Shown here piece after piece: positions 7,500 through 42,136 of a DNA stretch of 43,814 nt. Both the position numbers and the translations under genes were made by a program. The notes under the pieces were generated by a model. That model worked only from the letters and a program-made list of their open reading frames with translations, had not been told where the DNA came from and did not search any database. The first letter of the stretch is position 1. Every line of letters starts with the position of its first letter. The stretch comes from Verrucomicrobiales bacterium (GTDB taxonomy: Bacteria > Verrucomicrobiota > Verrucomicrobiia > Verrucomicrobiales > DEV007), in the NCBI GenBank assembly GCA_022361255.1, contig JAKSBG010000091.1:1-43814 (forward strand). Direction: 5' to 3'.

Positions 7500-7530
7500 C
7501 TCGGGAGACGCCCACTTCCTGCGGAGCCTT

Positions 7531-7770
7531 GTAGCCGCGTTCGCAAGAACGTGGCCCGCCAATTCTCCGCCCCACCGCTTTGCAGCGGCGGCTACACTTC
7601 CCCAATCCACTATCGAACCAAACTCCGCAGCACTGTAGCCGCGTTCGCAAGAACGTGGCCCGCCTACTCTCCGCTCCACCGCTTTGCAGCGGCGGCTACA
7701 CTTCCCAATCCACCATCGAGCCAAACCCCGCAGAATACTGTAGCCGCGTTCGCAAGAACGTGGCCCGCAA
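7531..7770. repeat. REP/BIME-like tandem array, 2.3 copies of a ~104-bp unit with two hairpins per unit
   Basis: gtagccgcgttcgcaagaacgtggcccgc begins at 7531, 7635 and 7740 (period 104/105). Each full unit also has ccaccgctttgcagcggcggctacacttccc. Hairpins CCGCGTTC-GCAA-GAACGTGG and CCGCT-TTGC-AGCGG; outer arms GTAGCCGC/GCGGCTAC. Confidence 0.9.
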
Positions 7771-7847
7771 CTTCCCCCGCCCTTTCGAAACAAATTCGTT
7801 CCGTTTTTTCTCTCATCCTTCTGAAAATATTCTACGATAGAACAACG

Positions 7848-8432
7848 ATGAAATTCCGACTTCACCTGCTATTCTCCCTGCTTTTTCCGGTCTGCTTTTC
7901 CCCCGCGATCCAGGCAGCAGACTGGGATCCCGAAGACACCGATTTCGACCCTGCGATTGAGAGCGTCATCGTCCAGGGTTCCACCAGGATTGGAGATCCG
8001 ACCCCGTTCTTCAAAGAAGGATTCAATGTTCAGTCCTACACCCATATCGAAGCAAAAGCAGACGACAATCTCGGCGCAACGATCTGGTTCAGCCTGATCG
8101 TCCCATTCGTCCCCGGCCAGACCGGCCCTCAGGAAGGTGCGTTCCTCGTTCTCTCAGTCGATCAGGCGTCCGATCTCATCCGCTTTCTGGAAAAGGCCAT
8201 CCAAGCGCCGGAAAAGGAGAAATCCTTTGGTAAAATTTTTCAGGAAGGGAAAAACGAAATCTGGACCGTGAAAGTCGACCCGGGCGACGAATCCCTTCCT
8301 GTCGTTCTCGAGATGGAGGTAAACGAGGAAACCGATCGCTATCATTTCGGCATCAATCCCGCCACTAAACTCGTCGACACCCTGAAAAAAGTCTCGGCAC
8401 AGGCAAACGAGATTGCATCCGGCGGGCAATGA
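7848..8432 (+). CDS. Secreted/periplasmic hypothetical protein
   Basis: In-frame ATG at 7848 starts a signal peptide MKFRLHLLFSLLFPVCFSPAIQAADWDPED; upstream part of ORF 7551..8432 is repeat-derived. 4-bp overlap with the next gene. Confidence 0.75.
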   Translation: MKFRLHLLFSLLFPVCFSPAIQAADWDPEDTDFDPAIESVIVQGSTRIGDPTPFFKEGFNVQSYTHIEAKADDNLGATIWFSLIVPFVPGQTGPQEGAFLVLSVDQASDLIRFLEKAIQAPEKEKSFGKIFQEGKNEIWTVKVDPGDESLPVVLEMEVNEETDRYHFGINPATKLVDTLKKVSAQANEIASGGQ

Positions 8433-9397
8433 AAATCGCCCTGCTCGTCACCCCCTTTTCCGACGAAAACCTCGCTCTCGCCGCTCAGGTCGGCGTCGAG
8501 GAAATTGTCGCTACCTGGCCCGGCCTTGATCCAGCAATCCTTGACGGGAACAGGCGCCGTGTCGAAGCGCACGGCATGAAACTCGGTGTGATCGAACGGT
8601 ATGTCCCCACTCTCGATTTCATTCACGGGACGGAGAACTGTCGACAGCAGACCGAAAATTTCAAAACCCTGCTTCGCAACATGGGCGAAGCCGAAGTCCC
8701 CGTCCTCTGCTACAGCTGGATGCCCAACGACGACTGGCAGCGAACGCGGCTCGACCTACCGGACCGCGGAGGCGCTCTCGTTACCGAGTTCGACATTCGA
8801 AATCCTGACAAAGCAATCAACGCAACCGGATTTAATTTCTCTCCCACTGACCCAACTCCCGCCTCAAAGCTCTGGGAAAATCTCGAACGTTTTCTTAACG
8901 AAGTCATTCCCGTAGCCGAAGATGCCGGTGTTCGCCTCGCGATGCATCCCGATGATCCTCCCATGGCAGAAGCATTCGGCCAACAGCGTATCATGCACAC
9001 TCCGGAAGCATTCGAGCGAATGGTGAAAATGGTCGACTCCCCAGCCAATGGAATCTGTCTTTGTCAGGGTTCTTTTGCCTCCTCCGCTGCAGAATACGAT
9101 ATCCCTGCCCTGATTCGGAGACTGGCTCCTCACATAGTCTTCGCGCACTTCCGCGACGTCACGGGGGCCGTCCCCCATTTTCAGGAAACCTTTCACGATC
9201 TGGGAAAAACTGACATGGCCGCCTGCATCCGGGCCTATCAGGATTGCTGTTCCAACATCCCCATTCGGCCCGACCATGTCCCCACTCTCCACGGGGAATC
9301 CAATAAACACCCGGGATACCACATGATGGGACGGCTCTGGGCAGTCGGATATATGCGGGGACTACTGGACGCAAGCACTTCCGCCAAACAGGGTTAG
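8429..9397 (+). CDS. Mannonate dehydratase (UxuA)-like protein, TIM-barrel
   Basis: CYSWMPNDDWQRTRLDLPDRGGALVTEFD, VRLAMHPDDPPM, NGICLCQGSF, HFRDVTGAVPHFQETFHDLGKTDM, HGESNKHPGYHMMGRLWAVGYMRGL resemble the UxuA family. Confidence 0.75.
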   Translation: MKIALLVTPFSDENLALAAQVGVEEIVATWPGLDPAILDGNRRRVEAHGMKLGVIERYVPTLDFIHGTENCRQQTENFKTLLRNMGEAEVPVLCYSWMPNDDWQRTRLDLPDRGGALVTEFDIRNPDKAINATGFNFSPTDPTPASKLWENLERFLNEVIPVAEDAGVRLAMHPDDPPMAEAFGQQRIMHTPEAFERMVKMVDSPANGICLCQGSFASSAAEYDIPALIRRLAPHIVFAHFRDVTGAVPHFQETFHDLGKTDMAACIRAYQDCCSNIPIRPDHVPTLHGESNKHPGYHMMGRLWAVGYMRGLLDASTSAKQG

Positions 9398-9439
9398 ATC
9401 GCGCCCTCAACAGGGTTGAGTGACCGAAGGAACAGGGTC
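9387..9439 (+). repeat. 22-bp-phased AACAGGGTT triplet, cluster 1
   Basis: AACAGGGTT at 9387, AACAGGGTT at 9409, AACAGGGTC at 9431; spacing 22/22. Confidence 0.8.
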
Positions 9440-18298: not shown

Positions 18299-18351
18299 AA
18301 CAGGGTTCGGTCATTCAGTCAACCCTGTTGAACCGGTCTCGATACCCTGTC
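18299..18351. repeat. 22-bp-phased AACAGGGTT triplet, cluster 2 (one core inverted relative to the other two)
   Basis: AACAGGGTT at 18299, AACCCTGTT at 18321, TACCCTGTC at 18343; spacing 22/22. First two form a 12-bp perfect inverted repeat TTCAACAGGGTT/AACCCTGTTGAA. Confidence 0.8.
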
Positions 18352-18365
18352 GGGTCCACAAAAGG

Positions 18366-18400
18366 AAAAAGCCCGACTTCCACAGGGAGGTCGGGCTTTT
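18366..18400 (-). terminator. Rho-independent terminator downstream of tsf (potentially bidirectional)
   Basis: aaaaagcccgacttcc-acag-ggaggtcgggctttt: long stem with A-tract and T-tract at the two ends. Confidence 0.85.
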
Positions 18401-31148: not shown

Positions 31149-31201
31149 AACAGGGTTGAATCAGTAACCTGACAGGGTCAATTTACCACCCCGACAGGGT
31201 T
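31149..31201 (+). repeat. 22-bp-phased AACAGGGTT triplet, cluster 3
   Basis: AACAGGGTT at 31149, GACAGGGTC at 31171, GACAGGGTT at 31193; spacing 22/22; between nusG and rplK. Confidence 0.8.
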
Positions 31202-42083: not shown

Positions 42084-42136
42084 AACCCTGTCCACTCCGC
42101 CACGGTACCCTGTTGAGCCCTGAACTGAACCCTCTT
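42084..42136 (-). repeat. 22-bp-phased AACAGGGTT triplet, cluster 4
   Basis: Plus-strand AACCCTGTC at 42084, TACCCTGTT at 42106, AACCCTCTT at 42128 (one base degenerate); spacing 22/22. Confidence 0.75.

Follow-up and report, generated by a model that had tools for sequence, protein, structure and literature searches.

Arrays of short imperfect palindromes, repeated in strict helical phase and scattered through intergenic DNA, form a family confined to one genus of uncultured Verrucomicrobiales. We propose that these arrays are the predicted cooperative sites of a putative DNA-binding protein that co-evolves with them and most likely has a role in chromosome architecture. To this reading, which is drawn from sequence comparison, we give a probability of about one half.

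The window, that is, the whole stretch of 43,814 nucleotides that was analysed, carries four arrays, whose units have a core read either forward (F) or in reverse (R). The earlier note had placed the cores of the first array at 9387, 9409 and 9431, positions that we confirmed, and had described the same architecture at 18299, 31149 and 42084. These three further sets are real, but their orientation differs, the set at 18299 being F-R-R and the one at 42084 lying wholly on the minus strand. A fifth set was searched for and none was found, in line with the claim that phased sets in the window are limited to four. The features are as follows.

Array 1, 9387-9439, plus strand: units F-F-F with cores at 9387, 9409 and 9431, in a convergent intergenic region.
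Array 1, core 1, 9387-9395, plus strand: AACAGGGTT.
Array 1, core 2, 9409-9417, plus strand: AACAGGGTT, with the extended form CTCAACAGGGTTGAG.
Array 1, core 3, 9431-9439, plus strand: AACAGGGTC.
Array 2, 18299-18351, mixed strand: units F-R-R (AACAGGGTT, AACCCTGTT and TACCCTGTC) with cores at 18299, 18321 and 18343; tsf (EF-Ts) on one side and a PhnA-domain gene on the other.
Array 3, 31149-31201, plus strand: units F-F-F with 0, 2 and 1 mismatches, in the nusG/rplK gap.
Array 4, 42084-42136, minus strand: units R-R-R with 1 mismatch per unit, between divergent HAD-hydrolase and cytidylyltransferase (kdsB-like) genes.

Successive arrays are separated by 8.9, 12.9 and 10.9 kb. Core 1 of array 1 does overlap the stop codon of the uxuA-like gene, as had been claimed: its last base supplies the T of the TAG (9395-9397) that ends this UxuA-family gene (PF03786, E = 6e-70). 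Elsewhere in the window, positions 7500-7870, in the gap before an 8.4 kb gene, hold several imperfect copies of a repeat with a VAAFARTWPA-like translation, which is unrelated to the arrays.

The genomes analysed are fragmented metagenome assemblies with home-made gene calls, and the window's own genome, G000, comprises 5.85 Mb in 548 contigs. Across the whole of G000, the pattern AACAGGGTT-N13-AACAGGGTT, with up to three mismatches allowed, gave 573 pairs (287 + 286), compared with 2 (1 + 1) for a reversed-pattern control, a genome-wide excess at 22 bp that upholds the helical phasing first described in the window. In a 428-kb sample of this genome, made up of the window and 20 stretches from large contigs, core pairs with at most one mismatch occurred 44 times at 22 bp and 23 times at 44 bp, and three times in total at all other distances up to 150 bp. 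Unbiased sampling gave about 25 triplets per 428 kb, a density that predicts a few hundred arrays genome-wide in G000. Exactly three units were present in 41 of 44 sampled G000 arrays; the three-unit architecture proposed from the window thus holds in this genome, but it is not family-wide, as other species have two or four to six.

The extended G000 unit reads GAYYYAAC-AGG-GTTRRRTC, a 19-bp imperfect palindrome with a 3-bp linker, which bears out the pseudo-palindrome suggested earlier. Half-sites of alternating direction recur at 11-bp steps, and in the 428 kb the G000 arrays occur in three registers, the fourth being absent. Either core orientation is allowed at a fixed register, and the central AGG is strictly kept, though in either direction; this freedom of orientation in the same register marks the site as double-stranded DNA with central symmetry. 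The exact 22-bp repeat (21 bp in one species) places all units on the same side of the helix. Exact cores lie mostly inside arrays (43/47 in G000 and 40/40 in G030), lone exact cores are not enriched over permuted 9-mers in either genome, and over-representation is limited to arrays of at least two units. Since lone cores stay at chance level, it is the array, rather than the core, that is kept. Where neighbouring cores are opposite in G012, they always run forward-then-reverse (13 vs 0) and form one long palindrome; G000 follows this rule weakly (11 vs 7), and opposite-core pairs are almost absent in G030.

The intergenic location described for the window was borne out, with 23 of 25 G000 arrays lying between genes although only about 11% of the DNA is intergenic. 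The arrays are also more evenly spaced than random placement into intergenic regions would make them, in all three species measured. The gap CV was 0.44 in G012 against 0.93 expected (658 kb; 0/5000 simulations) and 0.45 in G030 against 0.88 expected (340 kb; P = 0.0006); even spacing was repeated on independent G030 contigs (P = 0.0002) and was also seen in the small G000 sample (P = 0.0012). The mean interval between arrays is about 16-23 kb in the two best-measured species.

Placement bears on whether the arrays are operators through which a global transcription regulator would control several hundred genes. Their palindromic, cooperative-looking sites would suit such a role, and some arrays are no more than some tens of bases away from a start codon. 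However, with three species pooled, arrays were found in 10% of tandem and 12% of convergent regions but in 5.6% of divergent ones, a mild depletion at divergent promoters (P = 0.06) rather than an enrichment, which agrees with the earlier view that a simple promoter operator is unlikely. The usual position of G012 arrays near the upstream stop codon, the even spacing and the identity of the neighbours, which are unrelated housekeeping genes, also argue against operators, an explanation that we regard as very unlikely. BrnT/BrnA-like toxin-antitoxin genes adjoin arrays at three or four loci, which may be coincidence.

Comparison with G002, the nearest relative of G000, allowed individual sites to be followed. 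Over seven orthologous arrays, 172 of 189 core positions were identical (91%) as against 125 of 182 spacer positions (69%; P = 6e-8), and this higher identity indicates that the cores are maintained. The expected conservation of arrays in close relatives was thus seen at orthologous intergenic sites of this pair, in which 3 of 21 aligned units were flipped in place. A G012 counterpart was found for only about one in seven of the G000 arrays tested, and most array positions differ between G000 and more distant members. At the array 3 locus, the triplet is complete in G000 and G009, and the others have at most two units, all degenerate.

Such turnover of positions, a copy number that is patchy in the genus, the tandem duplication of units in some arrays and the many identical 12-nt spacers of G030 are all features that a mobile or copied repeat of the REP, REPIN or MITE type, multiplied separately in each species, could leave. 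Like REP, BIME and REPIN elements, the arrays are intergenic, palindromic, high in copy number and patchy between species; unlike them, they are without a GTAG/CGTC tag, inverted-repeat covariation or a Y1 link, and their spacers are unique in G000. In that genome, none of 85 spacers were identical, a larger list of 100 gave one identical pair, and spacer similarity was near the column-shuffled expectation, with a slight excess. Spacers that nearly all differ beside constant cores, in the part of all arrays that was compared, argue against recent copying in G000, and copying alone would leave the even spacing and the core-only conservation unexplained. Nor do Y1 transposases track the arrays. 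REP/RAYT was rejected as a candidate because Y1_Tnp does not follow repeat abundance (G002, 75% complete, has 119 dimers and 0 Y1_Tnp, and G035 has 36 Y1_Tnp and 1 dimer) and because the covarying arms of its hairpins were not found in 129 G000 units. The mobile repeat that the earlier note had offered as an alternative is disfavoured, though less so in G030, whose homogeneous spacers may stem from copying, and overall we judge it quite unlikely.

Within the same 129 units, the arms had no excess complementarity except for an A/T pair at -4/+13. Together with the in-place flips, this lack of covariation fits a symmetric protein on double-stranded DNA and not an RNA or single-strand hairpin. 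The earlier note had also raised a structured RNA, and the arrays might in principle act as transcript hairpins, as RNA elements or transcription terminators: an F-R array, the most frequent type in G012, can form a single long hairpin, and the arrays of that species stand shortly downstream of stop codons. Nevertheless, almost every array of G030 is F-F or R-R, independent of sense (6 FF and 6 RR relative to transcription), and array 2 already adjoins a separate terminator-like hairpin at about 18363-18400. An Rfam search of the window returned two tRNAs only and no array match. We consider an RNA role highly improbable.

Throughout a species, the arrays share their unit number (two, three or four to six), core spelling and phase (22 or 21 bp). 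Arrays have three units in G000, two throughout several other species and up to six in SLGN, and where G000 has a triplet, the orthologous site in the sister species G026 has two units. The core dialect of G025 is AACAGGGTA then CARTC. G030 has zero AACAGGGTT pairs; its motif, found de novo, is AATAGGGTA-CAAT at 21 bp, a dialect that gave 437 pairs across the G030 genome and hardly any in the rest of the genus. Spelling, unit number and even helical phase have thus shifted together at hundreds of dispersed sites, with the chromosomal spacing still even, and concerted change at so many sites implies one reader protein per genome.

The 22-bp pair was matched in 32 of 34 genomes of the genus, with counts from one to hundreds; the exceptions are G003, whose assembly is about half complete, and G030 with its separate dialect. 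The rest of the order gave stray matches to the pair at most, and the extended single unit was confined to this genus. A scan of 85,488 species genomes yielded, among the matches listed, Verrucomicrobiota records only, and those listed with an order or family were labelled Verrucomicrobiales or Akkermansiaceae. A viral origin appears unlikely, the exact pair being present in just 4 viral contigs across the whole collection. In the open-access literature, we found no description of the motif or of evenly spaced or repeated sequences in Verrucomicrobia. Three outcomes had been named beforehand as refuting (no excess at 22 bp, no conservation in relatives and a match to a catalogued repeat), and none of them occurred. 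A conserved ORF of two species (contigs of UBA6138 and UBA2381) contains a two-unit array whose spacer is identical in both, so a few arrays either are coding sequence or imitate it.

Some members of the genus are array-poor, namely G010, G011, G022 and, outside one island, G027, and this near-absence suggests that the system is dispensable. De novo searching of G010, G022 and G008 for a dialect of their own found no motif, which indicates that these three have few arrays, not arrays in another detected dialect. In a tree of the nusG-rplK region, which groups G000 with G002 and then with G026, arrays are nearly lost in the G011/G022 pair and kept in the sister pair G032/G014. Within the examined part of G027, arrays are limited to one metal-efflux island and are spelled in a AACAGGGTT dialect; the island was likely acquired horizontally from a relative and brought its arrays along. 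Four arrays stand there 10-17 kb apart (G027:C50:240-278 kb) around a high-GC block that resembles metal-efflux genes, with CzcA-like pumps, a CDF protein and a metal ATPase.

The main rival to the architecture reading is a DNA-uptake signal. In this case, a DUS/USS-like uptake or self-recognition receptor would prefer array DNA, and biased transformation would spread the motif and keep the dialects. Concerted genome-wide dialects, which the arrays possess, are a hallmark of DUS (PMC3630211). The arrays share with the DUS and USS of Neisseriaceae and Pasteurellaceae a number of hundreds of copies or more, a concerted genome-wide motif and within-family dialects, and the intergenic excess, the even spacing, which is also expected for such signals, and the AACAGGGTT-dialect arrays in the horizontally acquired island of array-poor G027 point the same way. 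Known uptake signals, however, are single short motifs at about one per kb, the USS of H. influenzae having an average spacing of ~1,000 bp (PMC7811141), whereas the arrays are multi-unit, strictly phased and, at one per 16-23 kb, about 15-20 times sparser. They are also without enriched lone cores, and a strict 21/22-bp multi-unit phase is not known to play a part in uptake. On this evidence, we hold an uptake signal to be unlikely.

Several other known systems resemble the arrays in part. The arms of the array unit match the consensus of the R''/R' boxes of integron attC sites (RYYYAAC / GTTRRRY); unlike attC sites, the arrays have a 3-bp gap between the arms, a tandem 22-bp phase and a dispersed, even distribution. 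The attC assignment was rejected, as an integrase scored over the cut-off in the array-less G035, G040, G042 and G054 and below it in the array-bearing G012. Full-length integron integrases are common in the order, often several per genome, with no link to arrays. The NBS of Noc, the SBS of SlmA and the matS of MatP are palindromic sites of single proteins, spread across much of the chromosome and architectural in role. The arrays are likewise palindromic and scattered chromosome-wide, but these known sites are single and conserved in spelling, whereas the arrays are phased and evenly spaced, with variable unit number and species dialects. A Noc/ParB-type system was rejected, since one ParB_N protein, and not an extra ParB paralogue, was found in nearly all members of the genus. 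In architecture, the arrays recall the OL/OR triplets of lambda and the paired ARG boxes of ArgR, where two or three imperfect palindromes lie ~21-24 bp apart centre to centre and are bound cooperatively on a single face of the helix; DNA looping is a further property of lambda CI. Those sites occupy one or few loci per genome, in contrast to hundreds for the arrays. ArgR itself was rejected, the family being absent from the genomes searched (0/57).

Under the reading we prefer, that of a co-evolving binding protein, a putative sequence-specific dimeric protein would bind neighbouring units cooperatively, and its dimers would line one face of the helix by analogy with the lambda operators. The species-wide unit number and the dialects of G025 and G030 suggest that this reader co-evolves with its sites. 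With lower confidence, the even intervals, the avoidance of divergent promoters and the unrelated neighbours suggest that the bound nodes may act at the scale of the chromosome, for instance as domain boundaries or in bridging or looping, compaction or segregation, and not in single-gene control. Gene families flanking the arrays, named by eye (yajC, nuoM/nuoN, hisA, obgE, brnT/brnA and sulfatases), gave no convincing candidate for the reader, and the G027 island was rejected as its carrier, its content looking like metal-efflux genes. More tentatively, and at less than even odds, the phased multi-unit arrays, set at near-regular intervals over the entire chromosome, could be a new kind of landmark system read by a fast-evolving, genus-specific protein, with dialects possibly isolating species genetically.

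The arrays point to a chromosome-marking (or DNA-exchange) system, as yet uncharacterised, in a little-studied group of bacteria. They present a natural experiment in the co-evolution of a bacterial protein and its genome-wide sites, and the dialects, together with the near-absence of arrays in some species, make the putative reader protein findable through proteome comparison.
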